Assembly: GCA_021771715.1 (NCBI GenBank)
Contig: JAETOO010000014.1
Location: 124,001 to 188,000, forward strand
Origin: Oscillospiraceae bacterium
GTDB taxonomy: Bacteria; Bacillota; Clostridia; Lachnospirales; Lachnospiraceae
Direction of reading: 5' to 3'
DNA: 64,000 nucleotides
The notes beneath the pieces are model-generated. The model was not told the DNA's origin. It was given only the letters and a program-made list of their open reading frames with translations, and ran no database searches. A program made the translations under genes and the position numbers. Positions 43,767 to 60,728 of this stretch are shown in pieces. Within the stretch, counting starts at the first letter, position 1. Every line of letters begins with the position of its first letter.

Positions 43767-44951
43767 ATGTCAGACTATGATAATCTGGAACACATTCTGC
43801 CGGTTGGCCCCTTAAAGATTGCGGCGCTCGAGGGGTGCCGTTCCTTTGGCGAGACGGTTGACAGCTATCTGGTAAAAACGAGGATCGAATCGAAACAGAA
43901 GTATCCGTCCCTTGCGACGGTTCCCGGCTACATTGAGGACACCTACCTGCTGGACTGTGCGTGTCCGCGCTTTGGCTCCGGAGAGGGAAAGGGCCAGATT
44001 CACGATTCCGTGCGCGGCGCAGACCTGTATATTCTGGTGGATGTCTGCAACTACAGCCTGACGTATTCTCTGTGCGGCTATGAGAACCACATGTCGCCGG
44101 ACAATCACTTTCAGGATTTGAAGCGCATTATTTCTGCGGCAAACGGAAAGGCGAAGCGGATCAGCGTCGTGATGCCGTTCCTCTATGAGGGCCGTCAGCA
44201 CAAGCGCTCCAAGCGGGAGTCCCTGGACTGCTCCTTGGCGCTCCAGGAGCTGGTCGACATGGGAGTCTCGAATATCATCACCTTTGACGCGCACGACCCG
44301 CGTGTGCAGAATGCGATCCCGCTGAGCGGTTTCGATTCGTTTATGGCGACGTACCAGTTCCTGAAGGCGCTGGCGGACACGGTAGAGGATTTCCGGATCG
44401 ACAACGATCACCTGATGGTGGTCAGCCCGGACGAGGGGGCGATGAGCCGCGCGGTCTATTTTTCGAGTATTCTGGGCGTGGACATGGGGATGTTCTACAA
44501 GCGGCGCGACTATTCCACCGTGGTCAACGGGCGCAATCCGATCGTGGCGCATGAGTTTCTGGGGGATTCGGTAGAGGGGAAGGACGTGATCGTCGTCGAT
44601 GACATGATCTCATCGGGCGACAGTATGCTGGATGTCGCGAAGCAGATCAAGAACCGCGGCGCGAAGCGCGTCTTCGTCTGCACGACGTTCGGTCTGTTCA
44701 CGGATGGCTTTGCGAAGTTTGACGAGTATTACGAGAAGGGCTATATCACAAAGGTTGTGACGACGAACCTGAATTACCGCAATCCGGAGCTCTTCACGAA
44801 GCCGTACTACGCGGAGGCGGATATGACGCGCTTTCTCGCGATGATCATCGAGTATCTGAATCACGATGTCACCTTGAGCAAGCTCGAGTCGCCGACGGAC
44901 AAGATCAACGATTTCCTCGGCACGATGCGCGAGATTGAGCAGGGACTTTGA
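43767..44951 (+). CDS. prs: Ribose-phosphate pyrophosphokinase, long form
   Basis: A 394-residue PRPP synthetase, about 75 residues longer than the usual ~315. It keeps the catalytic His region (NIITFDAHDPRVQNAI), the flexible-loop Lys/Arg (YKRRDYS) and the PRPP-binding loop DVIVVDDMISSGDSM. The extra length lies in an N-terminal extension and loop (LPVGPLKIAALEGC..KYPSLATVPGYIED) and the C-terminal tail. Similar long forms exist in Clostridia. It makes PRPP for nucleotide, His and Trp synthesis. AGGAGG lies before the ATG. Confidence 0.93.
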   Translation: MSDYDNLEHILPVGPLKIAALEGCRSFGETVDSYLVKTRIESKQKYPSLATVPGYIEDTYLLDCACPRFGSGEGKGQIHDSVRGADLYILVDVCNYSLTYSLCGYENHMSPDNHFQDLKRIISAANGKAKRISVVMPFLYEGRQHKRSKRESLDCSLALQELVDMGVSNIITFDAHDPRVQNAIPLSGFDSFMATYQFLKALADTVEDFRIDNDHLMVVSPDEGAMSRAVYFSSILGVDMGMFYKRRDYSTVVNGRNPIVAHEFLGDSVEGKDVIVVDDMISSGDSMLDVAKQIKNRGAKRVFVCTTFGLFTDGFAKFDEYYEKGYITKVVTTNLNYRNPELFTKPYYAEADMTRFLAMIIEYLNHDVTLSKLESPTDKINDFLGTMREIEQGL

Positions 44952-45002
44952 GTTTCGCGGCGCGTTGTCTGCGGAAATAGAAATAGAATAGGAAAAGCAG
45001 GG

Positions 45003-45050
45003 AGAGGGGGACTTTGCACAGCGGCACCGTGCGGGATTCCCCTCTTTTCT
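45003..45050 (+). terminator. Terminator after prs
   Basis: Stem AGAGGGG / CCCCTCT with an inner GCAC/GTGC stem, followed by TTTTCT. Confidence 0.6.
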
Positions 45051-45138
45051 CCGGTTGCAAATTTGCGGCCGGGAGTGTATGATTAAGGCAGAATGGGGCA
45101 GGCGTTGGCTGTGCCCGTCAGGAAGAGATGGAAGAAGA

Positions 45139-46479
45139 ATGATGCAGAGTTTTGAACACAGAATCGCCCGGGTGCTTCCGGGCAGTATCGCCGAGGAGCT
45201 GGAGCTGGAGCCGGGGGATGTGCTGCTCTCGGTCAACGGCCATGAGATTGAGGATATTTTTGACTACCAGTATTTTACAAATGAAGAGTATCTGACGGTG
45301 CTTGTGCGCAGGCCGGACGGGGAGGAGTGGGAGCTCGAGATCGAGAAGGAGTTCGAGGAGGATCTGGGGATCGAGTTTGAGAACTCCCTGATGGACGACT
45401 ACCGCTCCTGCCGCAACAAGTGTGTGTTCTGTTTTATCGACCAGATGCCGCCGGGCATGCGCGATACGCTGTACTTCAAGGACGATGACTCGCGGCTTTC
45501 CTTTTTGCAGGGGAACTACGTGACGCTGACGAATATGAGCGACCACGATATCGACCGGATCATCCAGTACCACCTGGGGCCGATCAATATCTCTTTCCAC
45601 ACGACGAACCCCGAGCTGCGCTGCAGGATGCTGCACAACCGGTTTGCCGGGGAGGTGTTTCCGAAGATCCGCCGCCTCGCGGATGCCGGGATCGAGCTGA
45701 ACGGCCAGATCGTCCTGTGCAGGGGAATCAACGACGGGGAGGAGCTGGAGCGCTCGATCCGCGACATGACCGCCTATCTGCCGAGTCTGCGCAGTGTCTC
45801 GGTGGTGCCCGTGGGTTTGTCGAAGTACCGGGACGGGCTGTACCCGCTCGAGCCGTTTGAGCCCGGGGACGCCGGGCAGGTGATCGACCAGATTGAAGCG
45901 TGGCAGAGACGGCTGTACCCGGAGCACGGCATCCATTTCGTGCACGCGTCCGACGAGTGGTACTTGCTGGCCGGCCGCCCGCTGCCCGAGGAGGAGCGGT
46001 ACGACGGCTATCCGCAGCTGGAGAACGGAGTGGGGATGCTGCGGCTGCTCCATGAGGAGGTGCGCCAGGCGCTTGACGAGGAGGGCGCTTTTTCAGCCGG
46101 AAAGAGCAGTGCAGGAGAGGCGCTGCGCACCGTGTCGATCGCGACCGGGCGGTTGGCGGCCCCGTTCATCCGCAAGCTCGGAGCGCTGGTCACGGAGCGC
46201 CATCCGCGGCTCGCCGTGCAGGTGTTCGAGATCACAAATGAGTTTTTCGGGGAGAGCATCACGGTGTCCGGGCTGATCACGGCGCAGGATTTGATCCGTC
46301 AGCTGAAGGGGAAAGCGCTCGGCAGCAGACTGCTGCTCCCGTGCAATATGCTGCGCAGCGGAGAGCAGGTTTTCCTGGACGATCTGACCGTGGCCGACGT
46401 CGAAACTGCTTTACAAATCGAAATCCGTATTGTAGAATCAGGCGGATATGATTTTGTCCGCGCTCTGACGGAGGCCTGA
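45139..46479 (+). CDS. DUF512 radical SAM protein with PDZ-like N-terminus
   Basis: A 446-residue protein: PDZ-like region at about 5-60 ([23 protein letters not shown]), radical SAM-type cysteines C91, C95 and C98 in [14 protein letters not shown], then the DUF512 domain ([36 protein letters not shown]). The family is conserved in Clostridia next to der, and its reaction is unknown; a role in ribosome or RNA modification is sometimes guessed from context. The start at 45139 has GGAAGAAGA upstream; an ATG codon three bases later is equally possible. Confidence 0.9.
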
Positions 46480-46595
46480 CGGGCCTTTGCAGGCAGCGGT
46501 ATACACGGCGTCTGCCAGGAACAGGCGCAGAATCAGGCTGCTCTGCCCGGGACAGAAGGACAGAAGGGCAAAGCGGCAACAGACAGGAGGGTACA

Positions 46596-47927
46596 ATGAG
46601 TAGACCGATAGTAGCAATCGTGGGAAGACCGAACGTGGGGAAATCGACGCTGTTCAATGCGCTGGCCGGCCAGAACATAGCGATTGTAAAAGATACGCCG
46701 GGCGTGACGCGCGACCGGATTTATGCGGATGTGGAATGGCTGAATGTGAATTTTACGCTGATTGACACCGGCGGCATCGAGCCGGATTCGAGCGACATCA
46801 TTTTGTCGCAGATGCGCGACCAGGCGCAGATCGCGATCGACACGGCGGACGTGATTCTGTTCATGGTGGACTGCAAACAGGGGTTGGTCGATTCCGACGC
46901 GAAGGTGGCGGACATGCTGCGCCGCTCCCACAAGCCGGTCGTGCTGGTGGTGAACAAGGTGGACCAGTACGAGCGCGACATGGCGGATGTCTATGAGTTT
47001 TACAATCTGGGCATCGGCGACCCGTACCCGATCTCGGCGAGCAATAAGCTGGGCATCGGTGATATGCTCGACCATGTGATTGCGTGCTTTGGGGAGGAGA
47101 CGGAGCCGGAGGCCGAGGACGAGCGCCCGCGCGTGGCGATCGTGGGGAAGCCGAATGTCGGCAAGTCCTCCCTGATCAACAAGATTCTAGGCGAGAACCG
47201 GCTGATTGTCTCGAATATTGCCGGGACGACGCGCGATGCCATCGACACCGAGGTCAAGTGGAACGGGAATGCGTACGTGTTCATTGACACGGCGGGACTG
47301 CGCCGCAAGAGCAAGGTCAAGGAGGAGCTGGAGCGCTACAGCATCATCCGCACCGTGACCGCGGTGGACAGGGCGGATGTGGTGGTCCTGATGATCGACG
47401 CCGTCGAGGGCGTGACGGAGCAGGACGCGAAGATCGCCGGGATTGCGCACGACCGCGGCAAGGGAATCGTGATCGCGGTCAACAAGTGGGACGCGATCGA
47501 GAAGGACGACAAGACGATCTACAAATACACGCAGGATGTGCGCCAGATCCTGTCCTACATGCCGTACGCGGAGATTGTCTTCATCTCGGCGGAGACCGGG
47601 CAGCGGGTGCAGAAGCTGTTCGAGACGATCGACATGGTGATCCAGAACCAGCAGCTTCGGGTGGCGACCGGCGTGCTCAACGAGATCATGGCGGAGGCGG
47701 TCGCGCTGCAGCAGCCGCCCAGCGACAAGGGGAAGCGTCTGCGCCTGTACTACATTACGCAGGTGTCGGTGAAGCCGCCCACGTTCGTCATTTTCGTGAA
47801 CGACAAGGAGCTGATGCACTTCTCGTACACGCGCTACCTCGAGAACAAGATCCGGGATACCTTTGGATTTAAGGGGACCTCCCTCAAGTTTATCATCCGG
47901 GAGCGGAAGGACAAGGAGAATCAGTGA
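46596..47927 (+). CDS. der: Tandem GTPase Der (EngA)
   Basis: A 443-residue double GTPase: first G domain with [12 protein letters not shown] and DTGGIEPDS, second with [13 protein letters not shown] and [11 protein letters not shown], then a KH-like C-terminal domain ending in [10 protein letters not shown]. It is essential for 50S maturation. CAGGAGGG precedes the ATG. It overlaps plsY by one base (TGATG), giving coupled translation. Confidence 0.98.
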
Positions 47928-48568
47928 TGGTGCGTTTGATCTGTATCTTGATCGGCTATGTGTTTGGACTGTTTCAGACCAGCTACCTGTACGGGAAGCT
48001 GCACGGGATCGACATCCGCAAGTGCGGCAGCGGCAACGCGGGGACGACGAACATGCTGCGGACGCTGGGGACGAAGGCAGGCGCGATCACTCTGCTCGGC
48101 GACGCGTTCAAATGTGTGCTGGCCGTGGCGCTGGTGCGGCTGCTGTTCGGCGGGCGCTATCCGGAGCAGGTCGCGCTGCTTGCGATCTACACGGCGGCCG
48201 GCGTGATCCTCGGCCACAATTTCCCGTTCTACATGAACTTTAAGGGCGGAAAGGGCATCGCGGCGACCGCCGGGCTGATCCTCTCGATGAGCCCGCTGAT
48301 GACGCTTTTGGGAATCCTGACGTTCGGGCTGACGGTGGCGCTGACACACTACGTGTCCCTGGGCTCGCTGCTGGTCTACATCGGCTTTCTGATCGAGCTG
48401 GTCGCGCTCGGCCAGAGCGGGACGTTCGGGATGACGCAGCGGTACCTGAACGAGATGTACGCGGTGGCCGTCTGCCTGGCGGCGCTGGCGTTTTTCATGC
48501 ACCGGGAGAACATTGTGCGGCTCCTGCATGGAACGGAGCGGAAGACCTACCTTTTCAAGAAGAAATGA
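47927..48568 (+). CDS. plsY: Acyl phosphate:glycerol-3-phosphate acyltransferase PlsY
   Basis: A 213-residue integral membrane enzyme that uses PlsX-made acyl phosphate to form lysophosphatidate. Motifs: SGNAGTTNMLRTLG (motif 1), HNFPFYMNFKGGKGIAA (motif 2) and a C-terminal REN-containing segment. About five membrane segments are visible. The ATG overlaps the der stop. It precedes gpsA, which makes its glycerol-3-phosphate substrate. Confidence 0.97.
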   Translation: MVRLICILIGYVFGLFQTSYLYGKLHGIDIRKCGSGNAGTTNMLRTLGTKAGAITLLGDAFKCVLAVALVRLLFGGRYPEQVALLAIYTAAGVILGHNFPFYMNFKGGKGIAATAGLILSMSPLMTLLGILTFGLTVALTHYVSLGSLLVYIGFLIELVALGQSGTFGMTQRYLNEMYAVAVCLAALAFFMHRENIVRLLHGTERKTYLFKKK

Positions 48569-48628
48569 TCGGCAGGAGTGATCGCACGCAGCGGATGCTG
48601 TGGGAAGATGCGATGGCTGGGAGGTAAG

Positions 48629-49639
48629 ATGAAAAAGATCGGTGTGATAGGAGCGGGCAGCTGGGGAACGGCGCTTGCGATTTTGCTGAACGAAAACGGA
48701 AATGAGGTCACGCTGTGGTCGCACCGCGAGGAGGAGGCCGCGCGCGTGCGCAGGACGCGGGAGATCGCGAAGCTGCCGGGCGTCCGGATCCCGGAGGGCG
48801 TGCGCGTGACGTCGGATCTCGCAGAGGCCGCGGCCGACAGGCAGGTGCTGGTGCTGGTCGTCCCGTCAAAGTGCGTGCGGGAGACCGCCGAGAAGCTGCG
48901 CGCACACGTACGGCCTGGGACCGTGGTGGTGAACGCGGCGAAGGGGATTGAGGCGGGGACGCTGTTTACCATGACGGACATCATCGAGGAGGTGCTCCCG
49001 CAGGCGGAGTCCGCCGTGCTCTCCGGTCCCAGCCATGCCGAGGAGGTGGCGAGACTGCTGCCCACGACGTGCGTGATCGGCGCGCACACCGAGGCGACGG
49101 CGCGCGAGCTGCAGAGCCTGTTCATGAGCCCGGCGTTCCGCGTCTACATCAGCTCGGACATGCTCGGCATCGAGCTGGGCGGCGCGCTGAAAAATGTGAT
49201 TGCGCTGGCTGCCGGCATTGCGGACGGCATGGGCTACGGGGACAACGCGAAGGCTGCAATCATCACGCGCGGGATTGTGGAGATCGGCCGCCTCGGCATG
49301 CGGATGGGCGGCAAGCTCGAGACGTTCTCCGGCCTGACCGGGATCGGGGATCTGATCGTGACGTGCGCCAGCATGCACAGCCGCAACCGCCGGGCCGGAA
49401 TTCTGCTGGGGCAGGGCTACTCGATGGAGGAGGCGATGCGGGAGGTCAACATGGTGGTCGAGGGCGTCTACAGCGCGCAGGCCGCGATGGAGCTGGCGCG
49501 CAGGTACGACATCGAGCTGCCGATCATCGAGCAGGTCAACCACGTCCTGTTTGACGGGAAGGACCCGAAGGCAGCCGTCTCGGAGCTGATGCTGCGCGAC
49601 ACGAAGCTGGAAAATTCCCTGATTCCGTGGGAAGAGTGA
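48629..49639 (+). CDS. gpsA: Glycerol-3-phosphate dehydrogenase [NAD(P)+]
   Basis: A 336-residue GpsA: N-terminal nucleotide-binding GAGSWGTALAILLNENG, VLSGPSHAEEVARL, catalytic Lys in LGGALKNVIALAAGIADGMGYGDN, and TGIGDLIVTCASMHSRNR. It reduces dihydroxyacetone phosphate to glycerol-3-phosphate for PlsY. GGGAGG is six bases before the ATG at 48629. It is the last gene of the der-plsY-gpsA group. Confidence 0.97.
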   Translation: MKKIGVIGAGSWGTALAILLNENGNEVTLWSHREEEAARVRRTREIAKLPGVRIPEGVRVTSDLAEAAADRQVLVLVVPSKCVRETAEKLRAHVRPGTVVVNAAKGIEAGTLFTMTDIIEEVLPQAESAVLSGPSHAEEVARLLPTTCVIGAHTEATARELQSLFMSPAFRVYISSDMLGIELGGALKNVIALAAGIADGMGYGDNAKAAIITRGIVEIGRLGMRMGGKLETFSGLTGIGDLIVTCASMHSRNRRAGILLGQGYSMEEAMREVNMVVEGVYSAQAAMELARRYDIELPIIEQVNHVLFDGKDPKAAVSELMLRDTKLENSLIPWEE

Positions 49640-49711
49640 GGCACTTTGTTGCTTTTCACAAGAGATCGGGCGGTCACAGCCAAAAGTTCTGAAAAAAGTA
49701 CATCACAGTTG

Positions 49712-49740
49712 TTGAGATGAAAGCAGAATTATGTTATAAT
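49712..49740 (+). promoter_or_regulatory. Strong promoter at the head of the acetogenesis locus
   Basis: TTGAGA (four of six), 17-base spacer, perfect TATAAT. The predicted start, about 49747, coincides with the left arm of a long hairpin. Confidence 0.8.
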
Positions 49741-49747
49741 ACAGCAA

Positions 49748-49794
49748 ATGTGAGAGCCTGTTCAAGAATGTCAAAAAATTAACAAGCCTCACAT
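49748..49794 (+). promoter_or_regulatory. Hairpin at the predicted 5' end of the acetogenesis transcript
   Basis: ATGTGAG (49748-49754) pairs with CTCACAT (49788-49794); inside it GC and TGTT pair with AACA and GC around one mismatch. The loop is AT-rich. The arms begin at the predicted first transcribed base, so this could be an mRNA-stabilising 5' stem or an operator read as DNA. No known riboswitch is recognised. Confidence 0.5.
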
Positions 49795-49830
49795 GACTAT
49801 CTATGGAAGCGGACAGAAAGGAGTTGCGAT

Positions 49831-50166
49831 ATGCATATCGTTTATGACGAGAACGGGAATCCGATTGCACATGGGCACGACCACGGTGAGGGACATCACC
49901 ATCACCATGATCACGACCATGCAGGCTGCAGCCCGGAGGCGTGCGCGGATGGCTGTACCGGCTGCGGCGCAGACAAGACGGCGGCGCTGCTCGACTACAT
50001 GCTGAAGCACAATGAGCACCATGCCGCAGAGCTTGACCAGCTCGCCGACAAGCTGCGCGCGGACGGAAAGGACGCCGCTGCAGATCAGATCAAGAAGGCG
50101 GTGGACGAGTTCAACAAGGGCAATCTCTACCTGAGCCTCGCGCTTGCGACTGTGAAGGAGCAGTAA
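49831..50166 (+). CDS. Histidine/cysteine-rich putative nickel-binding protein
   Basis: A 111-residue protein with 14 His and 4 Cys. The N-terminal part (14-30) alternates His with Asp/Gly and has five consecutive His (22-26), followed by C33, C38, C42 and C45. The C-terminal half (49-111) is helical and amphipathic (LLDYMLKHNEHHAAELDQLA). No signal peptide is seen, so it is cytosolic. It lies directly before cooT and the CO dehydrogenase genes, so nickel storage or delivery to CODH/ACS is the likely job, comparable in logic to Rhodospirillum CooJ although not evidently homologous. AAGGAG precedes the ATG. Confidence 0.85.
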   Translation: MHIVYDENGNPIAHGHDHGEGHHHHHDHDHAGCSPEACADGCTGCGADKTAALLDYMLKHNEHHAAELDQLADKLRADGKDAAADQIKKAVDEFNKGNLYLSLALATVKEQ

Positions 50167-50259
50167 ATACAGGTTTCATTCCCTGCAGCTTTCCCGGATG
50201 AAGAGAGGGCTGCGGGCTGTTTTCATGTCAGAAATGGGTTTCGATAGGAGGTGGACGGT

Positions 50260-50442
50260 ATGTGTCTGTCGACTGCATATAAGACGAGCGAGCCGGACAG
50301 CATCATCATGGAGTATGTCAGCCGGATCGAGGTCGAGGGCAACCAGATCACGCTGACCGACGTGCTCGGCGATACGAAGACAGTGGAGGGTACGATCAAG
50401 ATGGTCGACCTGACCGGCGGTGTGGTGAAGATCAACTGCTGA
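50260..50442 (+). CDS. cooT: CooT-family nickel-binding protein
   Basis: A 60-residue CooT-like protein. It begins MCLS: Cys2 is the residue implicated in Ni(II) binding in Rhodospirillum rubrum CooT, whose dimer binds one nickel. The rest is a small beta fold (VEGNQITLTDVLGDTKTVEG, ending GGVVKINC). The ATG at 50260 follows AGGAGG by eight bases; an in-frame codon at 50251 would destroy the MC start. It sits between the His-rich gene and metF and should supply nickel for the CODH and ACS metal clusters. Confidence 0.9.
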   Translation: MCLSTAYKTSEPDSIIMEYVSRIEVEGNQITLTDVLGDTKTVEGTIKMVDLTGGVVKINC

Positions 50443-50545
50443 CCGGCGCCGGAATTTTTAACGATCGACAACAGCGGCGATATACCATGCAGCTGTGTAC
50501 GATAAACATATCCTAGGATAAAATTATGATGGAGGTATGAAGGAA

Positions 50546-51487
50546 ATGGCAAAAGTAAAACTGACTGATTTGATGAAGGAAAGACAGCTGCTTTCTTTCG
50601 AGCTTTTCCCGCCGAAGACAGACAAGGGCATGGAGAATCTTCCGGGCACGATCGAGAAGCTCTGTGAGTTCAACCCGGAGTATATCTCATGTACATACGG
50701 TGCAGGCGGCGGAAACGTAGGCCGCAATCGTGAGGTTTGCCAGGAGATCATCAAGGCCGGCACAGTTCCGGTAACGCACTTTACCGTAATCAAGAACACG
50801 AAGGAGGGCATCAAGGATCAGCTTCAGCAGTACCTCGATGAGGGCGTGGACCACATGCTCGCACTCCGCGGCGATATCCCGCTCGGCGAGACGACGACCT
50901 GTGGTGATTTTGATTACGCGACAGATCTGGTAGCGTTCGTCCGCAAGGAGTTCGGCGACAAGTTCGAGATCGCAGTAGCAGGCTCCCCGGAGGGACACAT
51001 TGCATGCCGCAGCCTCGACGCTGACATCGCTGTCCTGAAGATGAAGCAGGACAACGGCGCGGACTACATCATGACTCAGCTTTGCTGGGATATGGAGCAG
51101 TTCAAGAGATGGCTGGACAAGATCCGCACCGCTGGCGTTACGATGCCGGTAGATGTAGGTATCATGCCGATCCTGGATCAGGCAGCGACGATCAACATGG
51201 CGCTTTCCCGCAACGGATGTGTCATGGAGCGCAACCTGAGCAGACTGATCTCCAAGTACTGGCTCTTCCCGAATCCGTTCGCAGCGAAGGATGCGGAGGG
51301 CAAGCCGTTCGATATGTTCTACGAGCAGAAGGTAAGAGACTTCAAGGAGGCTGGTATCGAGTACACGATCAAGCAGATCGACGAGTACCGTGCTCTCGGC
51401 GTAGACGGCATCCATCTGTACGCGCTGAACAAGTGGCAGGATGTATCCCGCATCATCAAGGAGTCCGGGATGCGCACGATGATCTAA
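50546..51487 (+). CDS. metF: 5,10-Methylenetetrahydrofolate reductase
   Basis: A 313-residue MetF, TIM-barrel flavoprotein that reduces methylene-THF to methyl-THF, the methyl donor for AcsE. Visible: LLSFELFPPKTDKG (catalytic Glu region), CTYGAGGG, LALRGDIP and GADYIMTQLCWD. The start at 50546 is ten bases after GGAGG; the ATG at 50537 is only one base from that site. Most described acetogen reductases have a small zinc/Fe-S partner, MetV; no metV gene is adjacent here. A palindromic structure follows before cooC. Confidence 0.95.
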   Translation: MAKVKLTDLMKERQLLSFELFPPKTDKGMENLPGTIEKLCEFNPEYISCTYGAGGGNVGRNREVCQEIIKAGTVPVTHFTVIKNTKEGIKDQLQQYLDEGVDHMLALRGDIPLGETTTCGDFDYATDLVAFVRKEFGDKFEIAVAGSPEGHIACRSLDADIAVLKMKQDNGADYIMTQLCWDMEQFKRWLDKIRTAGVTMPVDVGIMPILDQAATINMALSRNGCVMERNLSRLISKYWLFPNPFAAKDAEGKPFDMFYEQKVRDFKEAGIEYTIKQIDEYRALGVDGIHLYALNKWQDVSRIIKESGMRTMI

Positions 51488-51526
51488 GGCGCACAGGATC
51501 AGAGACAGAGAAAAGGACTGAGATGG

Positions 51527-51599
51527 CTTTGCATGCCCGGGGAGGACTGCCGGGCATGCAAAGATGAGCGCGCGGCCTGCCGCGGGAGAACATGCCCGG
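51527..51599 (+). promoter_or_regulatory. Mutually exclusive hairpins before cooC
   Basis: A perfect 14-base stem CTTTGCATGCCCGG (51527-51540) / CCGGGCATGCAAAG (51550-51563) is followed by another copy of CATGCCCGG at 51591-51599. The right arm can therefore pair either upstream (14 bp) or downstream (9 bp). A CGCGG/CCGCG hairpin lies between. No T run follows, so it is not a classical terminator. Possible roles are RNA processing, mRNA stabilisation or attenuation between metF and cooC. Confidence 0.55.
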
Positions 51600-51637
51600 A
51601 CGGCCTGCGCGGCAATATAGATTGTAGGAGGCAGAAC

Positions 51638-52408
51638 ATGTCACACGTAATAGCGATTGCAGGCAAAGGCGGAGTGGGGAAAACGACTCTTTCCGGCATG
51701 CTGATTCAGACCATGTGCAGGATGGGGAAGACCCCGATTCTTGCGGTGGATGCAGATGCGAATTCCAATCTGAATGAGGTTCTTGGGGTTGATGTCGACA
51801 TGACGCTCGGCGAGGTGCGCGAGCAGATTGAGCGGGCTGAGAACAGTAAGGAGAATCCGATTCCGGCGGGAATGTCAAAGGCGGACTACGCGGAGATCAT
51901 GTTCCAGCGCTGCCTGAATGAGGATGACGATTTCGATCTTCTCGTGATGGGGCGCACGCAGGGAAAGGGCTGCTACTGTTATGTGAACGGCCTGCTTCAG
52001 ACACAGATGCACAAGCTCCTTCCGAATTATCAGTATATGGTCGTCGACAATGAGGCCGGTATGGAGCATATCAGCCGCGGCATTCTGCCAAAGGTCGACA
52101 CGATCATTCTCGTGAGCGACTGCTCGAGACGCGGTGTCCAGGCAGCAGGCAGGATCGCTGAGCTCGCGAAGGAATGTAATCTGAATCCGAAAACAATGGG
52201 CCTGATTGTGAACCGGGCGCCAGGCGGAAAATTAAATGACGGCACGATGGAGGAAATCGAGCGCCAGGGTCTGACCCTGCTCGGTGTTGTGCCGCACGAT
52301 GATCAGGTGTATGAGTACGACTGCGACGGAAAGCCGACGGTCGAGCTCCCGGAGAACTCACCGGTGCGCCTGGCATTAAACGAGATTATCAAAAAGCTTG
52401 CTTTATAA
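51638..52408 (+). CDS. cooC: CO dehydrogenase nickel-insertion ATPase CooC
   Basis: A 256-residue MinD-type ATPase with the deviant Walker A GKGGVGKTT at residues about 9-17 and the metal-binding pair C112-x-C114 in GKGCYCYVN, the same positions as in characterised CooC1, where the dimer binds one Ni. DNEAGMEHISRG is the Walker B region. It matures the C-cluster of the CO dehydrogenase encoded 48 bases downstream. The start at 51638 follows TAGGAGG; the frame is open back to 51533 through the hairpin region. Confidence 0.95.
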   Translation: MSHVIAIAGKGGVGKTTLSGMLIQTMCRMGKTPILAVDADANSNLNEVLGVDVDMTLGEVREQIERAENSKENPIPAGMSKADYAEIMFQRCLNEDDDFDLLVMGRTQGKGCYCYVNGLLQTQMHKLLPNYQYMVVDNEAGMEHISRGILPKVDTIILVSDCSRRGVQAAGRIAELAKECNLNPKTMGLIVNRAPGGKLNDGTMEEIERQGLTLLGVVPHDDQVYEYDCDGKPTVELPENSPVRLALNEIIKKLAL

Positions 52409-52456
52409 TTACCCATTTATATAAAGAAAGAATCTATAAATTTAAGGAGGTTTATA

Positions 52457-54349
52457 ATGGGAGACTTTAAGTTGACAACAGTAGAAGAGTTCGAGGCTGC
52501 TACCGAACGTCTTCTGGAGACTGGCAAAAAGGTGGGAGCTGACGGCTGGCAGTACCGTGTAAAGAACCAGACCCCGCACTGTAAGTTCGGTGAGCAGGGT
52601 ATCTGCTGCCGGATCTGCGCGATGGGCCCGTGCCGCATCACCCCGAAGGCTCCGAGAGGAATCTGCGGCTGTGACGTTCACGGCATCGTAGCGCGTAATT
52701 ATCTGAAATTTACGGCGGGCGGCTCTGCGACGCACTCCGATCACGGCCGTGAGATCTGCCACACGCTGTACTGCACAGATCCGAACGGCGCATATAAGGT
52801 AAAGGATCCTGAGAAGCTGATCCGCATCGCGAAGGAGTGGGGCGTTGAGACCGAGGGCAAGGATATCTACGATCTGGCTCACGAGATGGCACTGTTGGCT
52901 CTGGGCGAGTACGGCAAGGTATTCGGCTACCAGAACTTCATCAACAGAGCGCCGGAGCACACCCAGGAGCTGTGGAAGAAGCAGGAGATCGCTCCGCGTG
53001 CGATCGACCGTGAGGTTTCCTGTTCCCTGCACATGACCCATATGGGATGTTCCTCCCTGCCGGAGGCTCTGATCCGTCAGTCCCTGAGATCCGGTCTGTG
53101 CGACGGCTGGGGCGGTTCGATGGCAGGCACGGAGTTCTCCGATGTCCTGTTTGGCACGCCGAAGCCGATCGAGACCGAGGCGAACCTCGGCGTTATGAAC
53201 GCTGACAACGTAAACATCGTCGTGCACGGGCATGATCCGTCACTTTCCGAGATGATCTGTGAGATCGCGGACAGCCCGGAGATGATCGCATACGCGAAGG
53301 AGAAGGGTGCGAAGGGCATCACGATCTCCGGTGTCTGCTGTACCTCCAACGAGGTGGCAATGCGCCGCGGTATCCCGATGGCAGGTAACTTCCTGCAGCA
53401 GGAGAACGTAGTCCTGACAGGCGCTTGTGAGCTGATCGTCGTGGACGTTCAGTGTATCTTCCCGGCATTAGGGCCTCTTTCCAAGTGCTTCCACACGAAG
53501 TTCGTCACGACTTCCCCGGTAGCGCAGATGCCGGATTCCGATTTCATCCGTTTCAGCCCGGAGAATGCGACGGAGAACGCGAAGGCGATCGTAAAGATGG
53601 CAATCGACAACTTCGAGAACAGAAAGCCGGAGCTGGTACATATCCCGCAGATGAAGCAGAAGGCGACCGTCGGATACTCGGTCGAGGCAATCAAGAAGCA
53701 GCTTGACACCGTTGCGAACTCTCAGGTAGACGAGTTCGGCACGACGAAGCCGCTGATCGAGTGCATCACCTCCGGCGTACTCCGCGGTGCGGTAGCAATG
53801 GTAGGCTGCAACAACCCGAAGGTAAGACCGGATACCGCTCACATTGAGCTGATGAAGAAGCTGATCGCGAACGATATCATCATCGTGGCATCCGGATGTT
53901 CCGCACAGGCAGCTGCAAAGGCTGGTCTGATGGACAAGAGAGCGAAGGATCTGTGCGGCGCAGGCCTGAAGAGAGTCTGCGAGCTGGCTGACATCCCGCC
54001 GGTACTGCACATGGGCTCCTGCGTGGACATCAGCCGTATGATGGTGCTGGTGGCAGAGCTTGCGAAGGATTCCGGACTGAACATCTCCCAGCTGCCTGTA
54101 GTCGGCTGTGCTCCGGAGTGGATGTCCGAGAAGGCAGTATCCATCGGTAACTACGTTGTGGCGACAGGTCTTGACACCTTCCTGGGCGTAGATCCGTATG
54201 TGAGCGGCTCCGACAAGGTGGCAGAGCTTCTGACCAGCGGCATCAGAGACTGGGTAGAGGCTGCTTACACCGTAGAGAAGGATATCGACAAGCTCGGCGA
54301 CAAGATGATTGAGCGCATCGAGGAGAAGAGAAGAGCGATTGGTATCTGA
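52457..54349 (+). CDS. acsA: Carbon monoxide dehydrogenase catalytic subunit
   Basis: A 630-residue Ni-Fe-S CO dehydrogenase that reduces CO2 to CO for acetyl-CoA synthesis. The N-terminal cysteine cluster C42, C50, C51, C54 and C59 (B and D cluster ligands) is present, with NIVVHGHDPSLSEMI carrying the catalytic His region. Later Cys in GVCCTSNE, CELIVVDVQCIFPAL and ASGCSAQAAAKAGL match C-cluster regions. Length is typical of AcsA/CooS. AAGGAGG precedes the ATG. It is flanked by two maturation ATPases, and codons are biased to GTA/GCA, consistent with very high expression. Confidence 0.98.
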   Translation: MGDFKLTTVEEFEAATERLLETGKKVGADGWQYRVKNQTPHCKFGEQGICCRICAMGPCRITPKAPRGICGCDVHGIVARNYLKFTAGGSATHSDHGREICHTLYCTDPNGAYKVKDPEKLIRIAKEWGVETEGKDIYDLAHEMALLALGEYGKVFGYQNFINRAPEHTQELWKKQEIAPRAIDREVSCSLHMTHMGCSSLPEALIRQSLRSGLCDGWGGSMAGTEFSDVLFGTPKPIETEANLGVMNADNVNIVVHGHDPSLSEMICEIADSPEMIAYAKEKGAKGITISGVCCTSNEVAMRRGIPMAGNFLQQENVVLTGACELIVVDVQCIFPALGPLSKCFHTKFVTTSPVAQMPDSDFIRFSPENATENAKAIVKMAIDNFENRKPELVHIPQMKQKATVGYSVEAIKKQLDTVANSQVDEFGTTKPLIECITSGVLRGAVAMVGCNNPKVRPDTAHIELMKKLIANDIIIVASGCSAQAAAKAGLMDKRAKDLCGAGLKRVCELADIPPVLHMGSCVDISRMMVLVAELAKDSGLNISQLPVVGCAPEWMSEKAVSIGNYVVATGLDTFLGVDPYVSGSDKVAELLTSGIRDWVEAAYTVEKDIDKLGDKMIERIEEKRRAIGI

Positions 54350-54385
54350 TGAGATCTGTTAGAGAGAAGAACCAGAGGTGAGACT

Positions 54386-55156
54386 ATGAAGATTGCTGTT
54401 ACCGGAAAGGGCGGCGTAGGAAAGACAACGTTTGCGGCGACGCTGGCGCGGCTGTACGCGGATGAGGGACATCCGGTGCTTGCGGCGGACGCGGACCCGG
54501 ATGCGAATCTCGGGCTGGCGCTCGGATTTACGGATGAGGAGATCGACGAGATCGTCCCCATCTCCAAGATGCGCAAGCTCGTCGAGGAGCGGACCGGCGC
54601 GGACGAATTTAATAAAATCTTCAAGCTGAATCCGAAGGTGGATGACATTCCTGACAAGTATGCGAAGACATGCAACGGGGTGAAGCTGCTCGTGCTCGGC
54701 ACGATTGAGACGGGCGGAAGCGGGTGCGTCTGCCCCGAGCATGTCATGCTGAAGCGCATTATCAATCATCTGATGCTGCACTCGGGGGATGTGGTGATTC
54801 TTGACATGGAGGCCGGGCTTGAGCATCTCGGACGCGGCACGACGAGCGGCATGGACGCGTTTGTCGTCGTGATCGAGCCGGGTGCGCGGAGCGTACAGAC
54901 CTACCGGAATGTCAAGCGTCTTGCCAGCGACCTCGGCGTGCATCAGGTCATGGTGGTTGCGAATAAGGTGCGTTCCGCTGACGACGAGGAGTTTATTCGA
55001 TCCAAGATTCCGGCAGAGGATCTGCTCGGGTTCATTCATTACAATTCCGAGGTCATAGATGCGGACCGTCAGGGACAGTCCCCCTATGATTTCAGCGAGA
55101 AGCTGATTGAGGAAGTGCGCAGTATTAAAGAAAAAATAGATCACTCAAAGAATTGA
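54386..55156 (+). CDS. Second CooC-type ATPase (AcsF-like, ACS/CODH maturation)
   Basis: A 256-residue MinD-type ATPase paralogous to CooC. Deviant Walker A is GKGGVGKTTF near the N-terminus, and the metal-binding pair is C114-V-C116 in SGCVCPEHVMLK. DMEAGLEHLGRGT is the Walker B region. Position directly before acsB fits AcsF, the ATPase that activates acetyl-CoA synthase with nickel, but a role on CODH is also possible. It overlaps nothing; acsB follows 15 bases after the stop. Confidence 0.92.
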   Translation: MKIAVTGKGGVGKTTFAATLARLYADEGHPVLAADADPDANLGLALGFTDEEIDEIVPISKMRKLVEERTGADEFNKIFKLNPKVDDIPDKYAKTCNGVKLLVLGTIETGGSGCVCPEHVMLKRIINHLMLHSGDVVILDMEAGLEHLGRGTTSGMDAFVVVIEPGARSVQTYRNVKRLASDLGVHQVMVVANKVRSADDEEFIRSKIPAEDLLGFIHYNSEVIDADRQGQSPYDFSEKLIEEVRSIKEKIDHSKN

Positions 55157-55171
55157 TTGGAGGAAAGAAAC

Positions 55172-57295
55172 ATGACATTATTTGATGTTGTATTTAGTGG
55201 AAATGATGCGGTCTACGGCCTGACCGAGAACGCAATCAACGAAGCTATTGCAAAGTACGGCGAGGACAAAGCAGTCGCGTTCCCGGATACCGCTTACAGC
55301 CTTCCGTGCTACTACGGCGTGACAGGCACAAAGGTAGGCAACCTCGGCGAGCTGAAGGCAGCGCTCGGCGTTGTCAAGACTCTGATGACCAGAGAGCAGA
55401 AGCTGAACGATGCGTTCATGTCCGGCGTGGCGACAGCTCTGTGCGCAGAGTTCATCGAGGTTCTCAAATACATCGACGGTGCGACGCCGTACGAGGCTCC
55501 GTGCTACGGCCACCTCGCAGACGCAGTGATCCGTGAGCTGGGCGTTCCGCTTGTAACGGGCGATATCCCGGGCGTGGCGGTTCTCCTCGGCGCGGCTCCG
55601 ACGACGGAGGATGCGGTTGCTCTGGTAAAGAGCTATCAGTCTCAGGGTATTCTGGTAACGCTGACAGGCGGCATCATCGATCAGCTCGAGGAGGCTGGCT
55701 ACAAGACCGGCGCGAACGTGCGTGTGATCCCGCTTGGCAAGGATGTGACTTCCGTGATCCATGTCGTATCGGTTGCAATCCGTGCGGCTCTGATCTTCGG
55801 CAACGTGACGCCGGGCGATGCAGGCGCTCTGATGGAGTACACCATGAAGCGCGTGCCGGCATTCGTAAACGCATTCGCTCCGCTTGATCCGGTGATCGTG
55901 GCGTGCGGCGCAGGCGCGATCGCACTCGGCTTCCCGGTAGTCACGAACGAGGATACGTTCAAGGTTCCGAAGAGCCTGATCAACCAGCCGGATGTCTCCA
56001 AGTTCAACGCGACCTCCCTTGAGGCGAGAGACATCAAGATCAAGATCACAAATATTGACATTCCGGTAGCGTACGCATCCGCATTCGAGGGCGAGATCAT
56101 CCGCCGTAAGGATATGCAGGTTGAGTTCGACGGTTCCCGCGTGGACTGCTTCGAGCTGGTACAGACGAAGGAGATGAGCGAGATCGAGGATCACAAGATC
56201 GAGCTGATCGGACCGGACATCGACACGTTCGAGGTAGGCTCCAAGCACTCTCTGGCGTACATCGTAGAGGTGGCGGGCAAGAGCATGCAGGCAGATTTCG
56301 AGCCGGTTATCGAGCGTAAGTTCCACTCCTACCTGAACTGTGTGGAGGGCGCATATCATACCGGACAGCGTGACATGTTCCGTATCCGTATCGGCAAGGA
56401 TACGTTTGCGGCAGGCTTCCGCGCAAAGCACATCGGCGAGATCCTCTACGCGAAGGTAAAGAGCGAGTTCGCTGCTGTCGTTGACAAGTGCCAGGTAAAG
56501 ATCATCACGGACGCAGAGCTCTGCACAAAGCTTCGTCATGAGCTGGCAATCCCGGTATTTGACAAGCGTGACGAGCGTCTGCTGACTCTGACCGACGAGA
56601 GCGTTGACGTATACTACAGCTGCATCATGTGCCAGGCGTTCTCCCCGAGCCACGTCTGCGTGGTTACCCCGGAGAGACTGGGACTTTGCGGCGCCGTTTC
56701 GTGGCTGGATGCAAAGGCGACGAACGAGCTGGATCCGCAGGGACCGTGCCAGGTTATCACAAAGGAGAGACCGATCGACGAGAGAATCGGTGAGTACGAG
56801 GATGTCAACGAGGCAGTCAACAAGTTCTCGCAGGGCGCGCTGGACGATGTGTCTCTGTACTCCATCATCGAGAAGCCGATGACGAGCTGCGGATGCTTCG
56901 AGTGTATCTGCGGTATCGAGCCGCTGTCGAACGGTGTCTGCATCGCGAACCGTGAGTACGCAGGCATGACCCCGATCGGCATGACGTTCTCCGAGCTGGC
57001 TTCTATGACCGGCGGCGGAGTTCAGACCCCGGGCTTCATGGGCCACGGCAAGCACTTCATCGCTTCCAAGAAGTTCATGAAGGCAGAGGGCGGCGTAGCG
57101 CGTATCGTCTGGATGCCGAAGGAGCTGAAGGAGCAGGTGGCAGAGAGACTGAATGCGACGGCGAAGGAGCTGTATAATATCGACAACTTCTCCGATATGA
57201 TCGGCGACGAGACCATCGCTGAGGATCCGGAGACCTTGCTGGCGTTCCTTGAGGAGAAGGGCCACCCGGCACTCTCGATGGAGCCGATGATGTAA
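55172..57295 (+). CDS. acsB: Acetyl-CoA synthase (CODH/ACS alpha subunit)
   Basis: A 707-residue enzyme that joins CO, a methyl group and CoA. A-cluster ligands are all present: C484, C487, C496 and C506 for the Fe4S4, and C573-G574-C575 for the distal nickel. The constant offset of 22 from Moorella numbering (C506, C509, C518, C528; C595-G-C597) supports homology over the full length, including the N-terminal domain that contacts CODH. The start at 55172 follows TTGGAGGAAAG; a TTG at 55157 would swallow the ribosome site. Codon bias indicates strong expression. Confidence 0.98.
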   Translation: MTLFDVVFSGNDAVYGLTENAINEAIAKYGEDKAVAFPDTAYSLPCYYGVTGTKVGNLGELKAALGVVKTLMTREQKLNDAFMSGVATALCAEFIEVLKYIDGATPYEAPCYGHLADAVIRELGVPLVTGDIPGVAVLLGAAPTTEDAVALVKSYQSQGILVTLTGGIIDQLEEAGYKTGANVRVIPLGKDVTSVIHVVSVAIRAALIFGNVTPGDAGALMEYTMKRVPAFVNAFAPLDPVIVACGAGAIALGFPVVTNEDTFKVPKSLINQPDVSKFNATSLEARDIKIKITNIDIPVAYASAFEGEIIRRKDMQVEFDGSRVDCFELVQTKEMSEIEDHKIELIGPDIDTFEVGSKHSLAYIVEVAGKSMQADFEPVIERKFHSYLNCVEGAYHTGQRDMFRIRIGKDTFAAGFRAKHIGEILYAKVKSEFAAVVDKCQVKIITDAELCTKLRHELAIPVFDKRDERLLTLTDESVDVYYSCIMCQAFSPSHVCVVTPERLGLCGAVSWLDAKATNELDPQGPCQVITKERPIDERIGEYEDVNEAVNKFSQGALDDVSLYSIIEKPMTSCGCFECICGIEPLSNGVCIANREYAGMTPIGMTFSELASMTGGGVQTPGFMGHGKHFIASKKFMKAEGGVARIVWMPKELKEQVAERLNATAKELYNIDNFSDMIGDETIAEDPETLLAFLEEKGHPALSMEPMM

Positions 57296-57324
57296 AAAGC
57301 ATCCTGCGGCTCTGCTGTGGGATA

Positions 57325-57348
57325 GGGGATTTGCTTCTGCAAATCCCC
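57325..57348 (+). promoter_or_regulatory. Intercistronic hairpin between acsB and acsD
   Basis: Perfect ten-base stem GGGGATTTGC / GCAAATCCCC with loop TTCT, no T run. A second imperfect GC-rich stem follows at about 57381-57412. They probably modulate mRNA stability or partial read-through from acsB into acsD. Confidence 0.55.
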
Positions 57349-57438
57349 GTATAAAATAACATAAATTCTTTTCACCAACTCTCCCCCGGAGCGCCTGCGC
57401 TTCCCGGGAGCATGCAAACACAAGGAGGTAACGAAACA

Positions 57439-58380
57439 ATGCCGTTTACTGCAAAATCAGGAAAATTCAGTGCCAGCATCAACACCCTGACGATGGGCAC
57501 TGGCGAAAAAGCAATCGTTCTCGGTGGCGAGAATGTATTACCGTTCTATACATTCGATGCTCCGATTGAGAACGCACCGAAGGTAGGAATCGAGATCACG
57601 GACGGCGGTCTTGAGGCTGAGCCGGAGTGTGTCAAGAAGTATTACGAAGGCTGCGAGACGATCGTGGACATGGCTAAGAAGGCTGCAACCTTCGAGGGCG
57701 TAGATTTCCTGAGCATCCATCTGGAGGGCGGAGATCCGAATGGCGAGAACAAGCCGACCGAGGAGCTGATCAAGATCGTGAAGGAAGTTGCAGAGGCAGT
57801 GGACCTCCCGATCGTCATCAGCGGATGTAAGAACGTTGAGAAGGATTCGGAGATCTTTGCGAAGGCATCCGAGGTACTCAGCGGGAAGAATGCCGTAATG
57901 CTTGCGGCAAAGGAAGAGAACTACAAGAATGTCGGCGCATCGGCAGGTCTTGCTTACAAGCAGATCGTAGGTGCTGAGTCCGCTGACGATATCAACCTTG
58001 CAAAGCAGTTGAACGTACTGCTGACACAGCTCGGTGTAGACGCGAAGTCCATCGTGATGAACGTAGGTACTGCAGCGGCAGGCTACGGCTACGAGTATGT
58101 GGTATCCACTATGGACCGTATCAAGGCAGCGGCTCTTCAGCAGGGTGACGCGACACTGCAGATGCCGATTATTACTCCTGTTGCATCTGAGACATGGGGC
58201 ATCAAAGAGTCCATCGCTACGGAGGAGGATATGCCGGAGTGGGGCGATCAGGAAGCGCGCGGAATCGACATGGAGGTAGAGACTGCAGCGGCAGATCTGG
58301 CTTCCGGTTCGAATGCGGTGATTCTGAAGCACCCGGTTTCTGTAGCTACGATTTCGAAGATGATCAAGGCTCTGGTGTAA
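57439..58380 (+). CDS. acsD: Corrinoid iron-sulfur protein small subunit
   Basis: A 313-residue TIM-barrel subunit that shares binding of the cobamide with AcsC. Landmarks include GGENVLPFYTFDAPIENAP, FLSIHLEGGDPNGENK, GYGYEYVVSTMDRIKAAALQQGD and the conserved LKHPVSVATI near the end. AAGGAGG lies ten bases before the ATG at 57439; an ATG at 57412 lies upstream of that site. The subunit has no Fe-S cysteine motif, as expected. It is co-expressed with acsC and acsE. Confidence 0.97.
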   Translation: MPFTAKSGKFSASINTLTMGTGEKAIVLGGENVLPFYTFDAPIENAPKVGIEITDGGLEAEPECVKKYYEGCETIVDMAKKAATFEGVDFLSIHLEGGDPNGENKPTEELIKIVKEVAEAVDLPIVISGCKNVEKDSEIFAKASEVLSGKNAVMLAAKEENYKNVGASAGLAYKQIVGAESADDINLAKQLNVLLTQLGVDAKSIVMNVGTAAAGYGYEYVVSTMDRIKAAALQQGDATLQMPIITPVASETWGIKESIATEEDMPEWGDQEARGIDMEVETAAADLASGSNAVILKHPVSVATISKMIKALV

Positions 58381-58457
58381 GATCAGACGGTTTTACACGG
58401 AGATCATAGAAAGGATATTGGTATCCGTTTGTCCGGATAGAAGGAGGATATAGAACA

Positions 58458-59804
58458 ATGGCATTAAAAGGTCTTGATATTTTTAAATTATCACCGAAGA
58501 AGAACTGTAAGGAATGCGGTTCTCCGACATGTATGGCCTTCTCCATGAAGGTAGCGCAGGGCGCGGTCAGCATTGACGCATGCCCGTATTTCTCAGAGGA
58601 CGCAAAGGCGGCTATGAGCGAGGCGACCGCTCCGCCAATGAAGACGATCAAGGTCGGCGCCGGCGAGAATGAGATGGTGCTGGGCGGCGAGACCGTGCTG
58701 TTCCGTCATGAGAAGACATTTGTAAACAAGACAAGATATGCAGTGGACATCTGCAGCTGCATGGATGACGCGACGATCGAGGCGAAGGTAGCGGAGCTGA
58801 AGCACGTAGATTACGAGCGTATCGGTGAGCGGATGTACGTCGAGATGATCGACGTAGAGTATGATCCGGCGAGCGGCGCAGACCGTTACGTTGAGGTTGT
58901 GAAGAAAGTTGCAGGCGAGGGCAGAGTCCTGATCCTGGACTGCCAGGACGTTGAGGTGGCGAAGGCTGCACTCGATGTGTGCAAGGATGCGAAGCCGGTG
59001 CTGAACGGCGCAAATGCACAGAACTATGAGGCGATGAGCAAGCTGGCGACAGAGGCTGGCGTAGTGCTTGGCGTTTACGGCGCAGACGAGAACGAGCTGT
59101 TTGACACACTCGCAGCTCTGGAGAAGCTTGGCAACAAGAATCTGGTATTCAATGCGTGCACGTCTTCCGTGAAGGCAGCGTTCGCTACGGCGGTACAGTT
59201 CCGTAAGGCAGCGATCAAGGACAGCAACCGTACCTGCGGTTATCCGTCGATCGTGAATGTGTCCAAGCTGGCGAAGGGCGATTCCCATCTGCAGGCAGCG
59301 CTTCTGTCCCTGTTCACCGTGAAGTACGGTTCCATCGTAATTGCAGAGAAGATCAGCTACGCAGAGGCGCTTCCGCTCTACGGCCTGAGACAGAACGTCT
59401 TCACCGACCCGCAGAAGCCGATGAAGGTTGAGCCGGGCATCTACCGCATCAATGGCGCAGACGAGAACTCGATCTGCCTGACGACGGTTGACTTCGCTCT
59501 GACCTACTTTGTAGTATCCGGTGAGCTGGAGCGCTCTGGCGTACCGTGCAACCTGATCATCAATGACGCAGGCGGACTCTCCGTGCTGACCTCCTGGGCA
59601 GCAGGTAAGTTCTCCTCGAGCTCCATCGCGAAGTTCTTCCAGGAGCAGGATATCGAGGGCAAGATCAAGTGCCGCAAGCTCTGCATCCCGGGCAAGGTAG
59701 CAGTGCTCAAGGGCGAGCTGGAGGCGAAGATGCCGGGCTGGGAGATCATCGTAGCTCCGCGTGAGGCTGTACAGCTTGTGAAGTTCCTGAAGGACATGCA
59801 GTAA
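58458..59804 (+). CDS. acsC: Corrinoid iron-sulfur protein large subunit
   Basis: A 448-residue protein with the N-terminal Fe4S4 domain: C17, C20, C25 and C42, identical in position to the characterised Moorella protein. The central TIM barrel and C-terminal Rossmann-like domain (about 320-448; DAGGLSVLTSWAAGKFSS) bind the cobamide. It carries the methyl group from AcsE to AcsB. AAGGAGG precedes the ATG. A short GC stem (GGTATCC/GGATA) lies in the gap after acsD. Confidence 0.97.
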   Translation: MALKGLDIFKLSPKKNCKECGSPTCMAFSMKVAQGAVSIDACPYFSEDAKAAMSEATAPPMKTIKVGAGENEMVLGGETVLFRHEKTFVNKTRYAVDICSCMDDATIEAKVAELKHVDYERIGERMYVEMIDVEYDPASGADRYVEVVKKVAGEGRVLILDCQDVEVAKAALDVCKDAKPVLNGANAQNYEAMSKLATEAGVVLGVYGADENELFDTLAALEKLGNKNLVFNACTSSVKAAFATAVQFRKAAIKDSNRTCGYPSIVNVSKLAKGDSHLQAALLSLFTVKYGSIVIAEKISYAEALPLYGLRQNVFTDPQKPMKVEPGIYRINGADENSICLTTVDFALTYFVVSGELERSGVPCNLIINDAGGLSVLTSWAAGKFSSSSIAKFFQEQDIEGKIKCRKLCIPGKVAVLKGELEAKMPGWEIIVAPREAVQLVKFLKDMQ

Positions 59805-59916
59805 TTGCCGGTTCTCTGTGCGGGAGTTCCCGCAGAAGGAGGACAGGAATCCGAGGTTCATCGCCCGCCCGGCATCTGCCGGCGGGCGGTCAATATAACG
59901 ATAAAGGAGAAGAACA

Positions 59917-60702
59917 ATGGGAAAATTTGTAGTAATCGGTGAGAGACTTTCCACCACAGCTCCGATCATCAACAAGGCGTTCACGGAGAGAGATCCGGAG
60001 CCGGTGCTCAAGAGAGCAGAGCAGCAGCTGAAGGCCGGCGCTACGTATCTTGATGTCAACATCGGACCGGCAGAGAGCGACGGCGAGGACCTGATGAAGT
60101 GGGCAGTTACCCTTCTTCAGAGCCACTTCGACAACGTTCCGCTGGCACTGGATACCGCGAACAAGAAGGCAATCGAGGCTGGTATCTCCGTGTACAACCG
60201 CGCAAAGGGCAAGCCGATCGTAAACTCTGCGGACGCAGCAGGACGTATCGAGTACCTGGACCTTGCTGCAGCGAACGATGCGATCTGTATCGCGCTCTGC
60301 AACGGCGAGGGCATTGCGAAGGACAACGACGAGCGTATGATGTACTGCCAGACGCTGCTCGAGAGAGGTATGGAACACGGCATGGAGGCTGAGGACATCT
60401 GGTTTGATCCGTTATTCCTGGTTGTAAAGGGCATGCAGGACAAGCAGATGCAGATCCTTGAGTGCATCAAGATGTTCAGCGACATGGGCCTGAACTCCAC
60501 CGGCGGACTCTCCAACAACTCCAACGGTATGCCGAAGGCGATCCGTCCGATCATGGACTCCGCTCTGGTAGCAATGGCGATGATGCAGGGCCTTACCTCT
60601 GCAATCGTAAACCCGAACGACCTGCGTCTGATGGAGACGATCAAGTCCTGTGACGTATTCAAGGGCAACACGCTCTACGCTGACTCCTATCTGGAGATCT
60701 AA
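59917..60702 (+). CDS. acsE: Methyl-THF:corrinoid iron-sulfur protein methyltransferase
   Basis: A 261-residue pterin-binding TIM barrel that moves the methyl group from methyl-THF to the cobalt of AcsCD. FVVIGERLSTTAP, LDVNIGPAESDGEDLMKWAV, ALDTANKKAIEAG, KPIVNSADAAGR and GLSNNSNGMPKAIRP match the pterin site. AAAGGAGAAG precedes the ATG. A strong terminator-like stem follows, separating it from acsV, so AcsV is probably made at a lower level. Confidence 0.97.
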   Translation: MGKFVVIGERLSTTAPIINKAFTERDPEPVLKRAEQQLKAGATYLDVNIGPAESDGEDLMKWAVTLLQSHFDNVPLALDTANKKAIEAGISVYNRAKGKPIVNSADAAGRIEYLDLAAANDAICIALCNGEGIAKDNDERMMYCQTLLERGMEHGMEAEDIWFDPLFLVVKGMQDKQMQILECIKMFSDMGLNSTGGLSNNSNGMPKAIRPIMDSALVAMAMMQGLTSAIVNPNDLRLMETIKSCDVFKGNTLYADSYLEI

Positions 60703-60728
60703 TTCAGAACTGTTTCGTGAGGAAAAGG

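Follow-up and report, generated by a model that had tools for sequence, protein, structure and literature searches.

A small His-rich protein encoded beside CooT in CODH/ACS gene clusters of Lachnospiraceae

Results

Organisation of the locus

The window (the whole 64,000-nucleotide stretch of DNA analysed here) carries on one strand (+) a run of genes in the order His-rich gene, cooT, metF-like gene, cooC, cooS, cooC, acsB, acsD and acsC. The His-rich gene (49831-50166) encodes a 111-residue protein of PF26551 type, with the N-terminus MHIVYDENGN, a His/Cys-rich tail and a predicted C-terminal hairpin containing HNEHH. After a gap of 93 nt comes cooT (50260-50442; 60 residues), a clear match to PF10133 (69.2 bits, cut-off 27). 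Its product begins MCLSTAY, which places at position 2 a Cys whose role we take from work on Rhodospirillum rubrum CooT, as reported in PMC6006190. A gene resembling metF, for methylenetetrahydrofolate reductase, follows (50537-51487; PF02219, with TIGR00676 below its cut-off), and then the first CooC-type ATPase (51638-52408; start chosen at MSHVIAIAGKGG), with the motif CYC, and cooS, for the anaerobic CO dehydrogenase catalytic subunit (52457-54349; TIGR01702, 614 bits, cut-off 478). The second CooC-type ATPase (54386-55156) has CVC at the same motif and is followed by the genes for acetyl-CoA synthase, acsB (55157-57295; NF040764, 1053 bits, cut-off 800), and for the delta and gamma subunits of the acetyl-CoA decarbonylase/synthase complex, acsD (57412-58380; NF040759, 485 bits, cut-off 430) and acsC (58458-59804; NF003195, 514 bits, cut-off 306).

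An 11/12 match to a sigma-70-like promoter, TTGAGA-17-TATAAT with TG before the -10 element, lies at 49712-49740 (+), about 90 bp 5' of the start codon of the His-rich gene. Judged from this match to consensus, the His-rich gene is probably the first in its transcription unit. Between 49600 and 50700 the sequence showed no terminator-like site, and an Rfam scan of 44000-64000 gave no match at the gathering threshold. The initial annotation had described a 111-residue His/Cys-rich protein (His, 14; Cys, 4) at the head of a Wood-Ljungdahl locus, followed at once by a CooT with an MC start and accompanied by two CooC-type ATPases at 51.6 and 54.4 kb. All of this agrees with the reading frames and with the CODH/ACS cluster downstream, with the one correction that the metF-like gene separates cooT from the first cooC.

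A family defined by its C-terminal hairpin

The 14 His residues of the window protein are at positions 2, 14, 16, 18, 22-26, 28, 30, 60, 63 and 64, and the four Cys at 33, 38, 42 and 45; 11 of the His fall within residues 2-30 and none within residues 65-111. Conservation across a family is a stronger argument for the reality of the gene than the improbability of this composition (P ~6e-8 for at least 14 His in 111 residues, at an assumed His background of 2%). At E<=0.001, 707 of the 803 candidates from a protein search were homologues, and a profile search gave 4088 matches, with 7999 candidates scored. The precomputed label PF26551, a family known to us by number only, is carried by 120 of 120 among the homologues listed; one of these is 99% identical to the window protein, whose own membership is read through that label. 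By sequence, then, the window protein belongs to an undescribed family, PF26551 by number. It is a member of a large family, and a His-rich/cooT pair of acetogens has been published before (PMC10230548).

Across 80 aligned members there is little or no variation in an N-terminal MH, the sequence DENGN and a C-terminal Y-M-x-x-H-N-x-x-H-A-x-E-x-D, and the His/Cys tail varies in length. HNxxH is present in 159/160 homologues and HN..H in 100/103 profile-positive open reading frames, neither set being picked for the motif; one further alignment was so picked, and invariance in it is by construction. A start of the form MH[LIV] is found in 138 of 160 homologues, and we take this Met-His start to resemble the nickel-binding starts of HypA and NikM/CbiM. 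The number of His residues ranges from 6 to 35 (n = 160). The number of Cys residues before HNxxH ranges from 0 to 8, with four in 91/159 and none in 5/159, so that the "four-Cys knuckle" of the initial annotation is not a defining feature. Distant members can lose the tail (L133, and L089 with only 69 residues) and keep both the hairpin and the CooT neighbour. Since the tail varies or vanishes while the hairpin stays, the conserved core of the family, as judged from its sequences, is the C-terminal hairpin with H-N-x-x-H and not the His tail; the C-terminal part is predicted to be helical. Two loci hold extra family copies that lack the HNxxH motif (L093, 129-446; L097, 8968-9378).

Several homologues have been named "cobalt transporter" automatically. 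The maximum 19-residue hydropathy mean of the window protein is 0.56 and none of 160 homologues reaches 1.6; with no membrane-spanning stretch by hydropathy, the name as it stands lacks credibility. Matches of the window protein to Pfam DMP19, DUF4363 and Chap-C, and to NCBIfam IteA and AdcA, were far below cut-offs and were dropped. A profile search of the PDB gave four chains at E<=10, all designed or ribosomal proteins; none of them, in a PDB set that may lack CooJ, carried that name.

Pairing with CooT

Four genes were searched for in 299 genomes from the window's own family, the Lachnospiraceae, with the source genome among them, at E cut-offs of 1e-5 or below for the His-rich protein, 1e-4 for CooT and 1e-30 for AcsB and CooS. 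Positive genomes numbered 45, 46, 38 and 64, respectively. CooT was present in all 45 genomes with the His-rich protein, and in 44 the His-rich gene lay directly upstream of cooT, with a median gap of 21 nt between the two matches; in one genome (G199) the order of the pair is reversed. The lone CooT genome with no His-rich match (G154) has a His-rich open reading frame that ends just before CooT and was scored by no profile. The survey of cooT co-occurrence across Lachnospiraceae proposed in the initial annotation thus gives a near-absolute result. Second His-rich copies away from CooT were seen in G201, G203 and G225. Among loci from named genomes (the best 80 of 183, which lean to close relatives and so test the pairing less fairly than the 299 genomes do), CooT followed downstream on the same strand, no more than 1.5 kb away, in 79/80, and at the 80th the contig ends within the His-rich gene. 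In G203 (L092, 2272-5012) and G261 (L097, 9979-12515) an ABC transporter of polar amino-acid type follows the pair.

A further 299 genomes from the phylum contained 92 with CooT, two of them Lachnospiraceae, leaving 90. Examination of 80 of these gave 12 hairpin matches, 10 strong (E<=1e-15) and two weak (G408 and G443, E ~1e-4); neither weak one shared a contig with a CooT match, and both were counted as chance. All 10 strong matches lay directly upstream of a CooT. All 10 genomes also have AcsB, which is not itself telling because AcsB is common in this set (65 of the 80 CooT genomes). No partner was found in 68/80. At 40 CooT loci from outside the family, some shortened by contig ends, AcsB lay within ~6 kb in five, three of which have the hairpin; the remaining 35 gave no profile match for it. 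CooT is often without the partner, and the partner seldom without CooT.

A plasmid search aimed at a CooJ-bearing operon returned two CooS records, from Acetoanaerobium noterae and Ruminococcus albus. The former (L172) has CooT at 21085-21273 and, read by eye, a His-rich protein with HNNSH at 21725-22072. This record (NZ_CP154629.1), filed as an Acetoanaerobium plasmid, is 2.63 Mb long and probably a chromosome; it holds a CODH/ACS cluster in a region that has no gene annotation.

Co-occurrence with ACS and CODH

Among the 38 Lachnospiraceae genomes with AcsB, 37 have the His-rich protein and all 38 have CooT. The pair is present in only one (G201) of the 27 genomes with CooS and no AcsB, three of which have CooS matches below the family's cut-off, and the G201 contig ends just past the second cooC, the expected place of acsB. 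Conversely, G219 carries the pair beside AcsB and has no CooS match. All 47 named loci with at least 8.5 kb of downstream sequence reach AcsB (among the best 80 of 183). These counts show that the module follows ACS rather than CODH as such, the CODH clades being pooled; because they are pooled, the pair could instead follow one CODH type. The initial annotation proposed a likely nickel-delivery module, with the His-rich protein in the role of CooJ. The pairing with CooT and the conserved ACS/CODH context uphold that proposal in part, and the 26/27 CooS-only genomes without the pair speak against a module that follows CODH as such.

It has to be considered that the pair supplies nickel to CODH (CooS) only, as an accessory of CooJ type, and that the link to ACS arises because this type of CODH is encoded with ACS. 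The window's cluster includes CooS, as do 69/80 of the named loci (best 80 of 183). CooJ and CooT of R. rubrum are described as acting on CODH (PMC6006190), and a survey published in eLife in 2026 relied on manual selection of potential CooJ proteins in operons that also encode CooS and CooT, reporting 68 after PSI-BLAST (PMC13056359). We nevertheless regard this explanation as unlikely, given the near-absence of the His-rich protein from CooS-only genomes, its presence with AcsB in G219 where CooS is unmatched, and the occurrence of the pair in seven genomes with no match to either enzyme.

Two further features of the named loci were observed. In 17 of 80 loci (L008, 14272-14964; L020, 14621-15313; and 15 others) there is, separate from the full cooS, a stretch whose match to CooS is confined to the C-terminal part, mostly from about residue 398 to residue 630 at 38-50% identity; in two loci that were read through, it forms an open frame of ~245 residues before acsB. 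Six of 80 loci (L034, L066, L072, L073, L077 and L079) have two acsB matches of more than 600 residues.

The pair beside an ACS-like operon

The survey of 299 Lachnospiraceae genomes gave seven in which the pair occurs with no CooS or AcsB match (G009, G081, G199, G234, G238, G252 and G295). In 7/7 the pair's contig also encodes an ACS-like protein of ~237 residues with the CODH/ACS beta-subunit domain PF03598, and in 5/7 its gene lies within 600 bp of the His-rich gene. Seven of the eight AcsB-less genomes with the pair have such a protein (hypergeometric P ~9e-8). The contigs hold, with varying completeness, a CooC-like ATPase (in 5/7 of the stretches fetched), HGD-D subunits, an activase and the ACS-like protein. 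The best NCBIfam match of the HGD-D subunits (PF06050) is a double-cubane reductase, below its cut-off, and the activase is of the acyl-CoA dehydratase activase type. Among the matches listed, the CooC-like proteins of ACS-like operons (loci L084-L090 and L154-L171) have GCYC in 20/20 (19 genes, L090 being the same as L171).

Nine of 10 ACS-like proteins tested exceed the PF03598 cut-off, the tenth having E 3e-4; that of L089 is also over it. In an alignment of 17, a C-terminal CX2CX5C keeps its three Cys residues in every member; the protein stops shortly after this motif and lacks what remains of the ACS C-terminal domain. Matches carry the names CODH/ACS complex beta subunit (Pseudobutyrivibrio) and carbon monoxide dehydrogenase (Butyrivibrio fibrisolvens). 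A profile search found the ACS-like protein in 23/299 family genomes; the profile was built from five pair-bearing operons, so that scores there are biased upward, yet it still found 16 other genomes. Fifteen genomes have the ACS-like protein with neither pair nor AcsB, four of them with CooS, and in G026 it is on a different contig from AcsB and the pair. With the pair lacking from 15 of the 22 AcsB-less genomes that have the ACS-like protein, the ACS-like system can evidently do without it.

We found no description, in open-licence literature listings, of the ACS-like/HGD-D/CooC operon or of the pair beside it. Tentatively, the His-rich protein and CooT might be a nickel-loading pair for proteins of the ACS fold generally, and the ACS-like operon an unrecognised nickel-dependent, ATP-driven reductase, possibly related to one-carbon metabolism; we consider this possible, with the balance against it. 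Valk et al. report CO dehydrogenase activity and acetogenesis in one member of the Lachnospiraceae that lacks canonical CODH/ACS genes (PMC7000372), and if the suggestion were true, the operon would be a candidate for that unexplained activity.

Discussion

We know of no settled route for the supply of nickel to acetyl-CoA synthase, on which acetogenesis centres. A module of two genes that tracks ACS and not CODH identifies parts that can be tested. The other context, that of the ACS-like operon, suggests a candidate nickel enzyme in bacteria of the rumen and gut and supplies a concrete gene set for the question of acetogenesis without CODH/ACS genes.

Our preferred reading, which we hold to be rather more probable than its competitors together, is that the His-rich protein is a dedicated CooT partner in a nickel-handling module serving ACS-fold enzymes. 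We infer the metal, the direction of its transfer, the contact with CooT and the client enzyme as follows. The variable His-rich tail would collect and buffer Ni(II), and the conserved HNxxH hairpin would hold or dock the metal and meet CooT. CooT, through its Met-Cys start, would hand nickel to the CooC-type ATPases, which would load the A-cluster of ACS and, in the same complex, the C-cluster of CODH. The "complete dedicated nickel route" of the initial annotation stands as far as the presence of CooT and two CooC-type genes; its completeness is not supported as written.

Nickel is favoured as the metal that the His-rich protein would bind because of CooT, of CooC proteins with CxC and of a paralogue in a NikA/NikD-like importer operon. 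R. rubrum CooT is reported to bind Ni with a Kd of 9 nM (PMC6006190). CxC is kept in full-length CooC homologues of the loci (78/78, 66/66 and 21/21), and the synteny of cooC with cooT likewise favours nickel. The paralogue, in G201 (L095), is the last gene of an importer operon; the closest matches of the operon's binding protein and ATPase are NikA and NikD, neither reaching its curated cut-off. CbiM/CbiQ-like transporter genes upstream of the pair in G219 (L091) keep cobalt as a less probable candidate.

The pair hp/nbp of Clostridium autoethanogenum (CAETHG_1604/1605) has been studied by Nwaokorie et al. (2023), who deleted each gene and report that homologues accompany Wood-Ljungdahl genes in other acetogens (PMC10230548). 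According to that paper, deletion of hp or cooT lowered AcsB 1.5- and 1.8-fold (q<0.01) and raised AcsE and AcsD, which may be possible support for a link to ACS. CooS1 also fell, so the effect was not on ACS only. The deletions reduced growth rate in rich medium, though not in minimal batch culture, and the cooT mutant was unaffected by nickel supplementation (PMC10230548). On these grounds the deletions are not proof of nickel delivery.

The medium dependence of these growth defects, together with the wide range of His content in the family, would suit a buffer or detoxifier of nickel or of metals in general, acting like other His-rich stores with no directed delivery. We think this improbable, more so than supply to CODH only, since some pairs lose the tail (L089) and keep the hairpin and CooT neighbour, and CooT is unnecessary for a pure buffer. 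Cobalt handling for the corrinoid Fe-S protein, to which the automatic name, acsC and acsD in the cluster and the CbiM- and CbiQ-like genes of G219 would point, is very unlikely in view of the absent hydrophobic stretch, the failure of the fetched stretches L084-L090 to match AcsC or AcsD of the window, and the nickel-binding CooT of R. rubrum (PMC6006190).

Comparison with known systems

The module of the window, as a nickel-handling candidate, resembles R. rubrum CooJ, a small His-rich CooT partner in a CODH operon that has been proposed as a nickel-delivery helper. The window gene, too, is encoded beside cooT in a CODH operon. The two differ in architecture, the His-rich domain of CooJ being C-terminal as described in PMC6006190, whereas the window protein is His-rich at its N-terminus, lacks a His-rich C-terminal domain and has the hairpin there instead; they differ also in that the window module follows ACS. 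In the 2026 survey CooT and CooJ fall within two sections of CODH clade E, and one-carbon genes accompany them with a single exception (PMC13056359); the terms "His-rich", "histidine-rich" and "Lachnospir" are absent from the survey's main text. The likeness to PF26551 is that of a label shared by all 120 of the homologues listed, and CooT itself (PF10133) is shared with many genomes of the phylum's other families that have no such partner. Closest by description, on which the comparison rests, is hp/nbp, likewise a small His-rich protein adjoining CooT beside a CODH/ACS cluster; that paper, as far as consulted, contains no family, motif, test of ACS against CODH or context outside ACS (PMC10230548). 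As far as the open-licence literature shows, the hairpin core, the association with ACS and not CODH, and the second operon are new.
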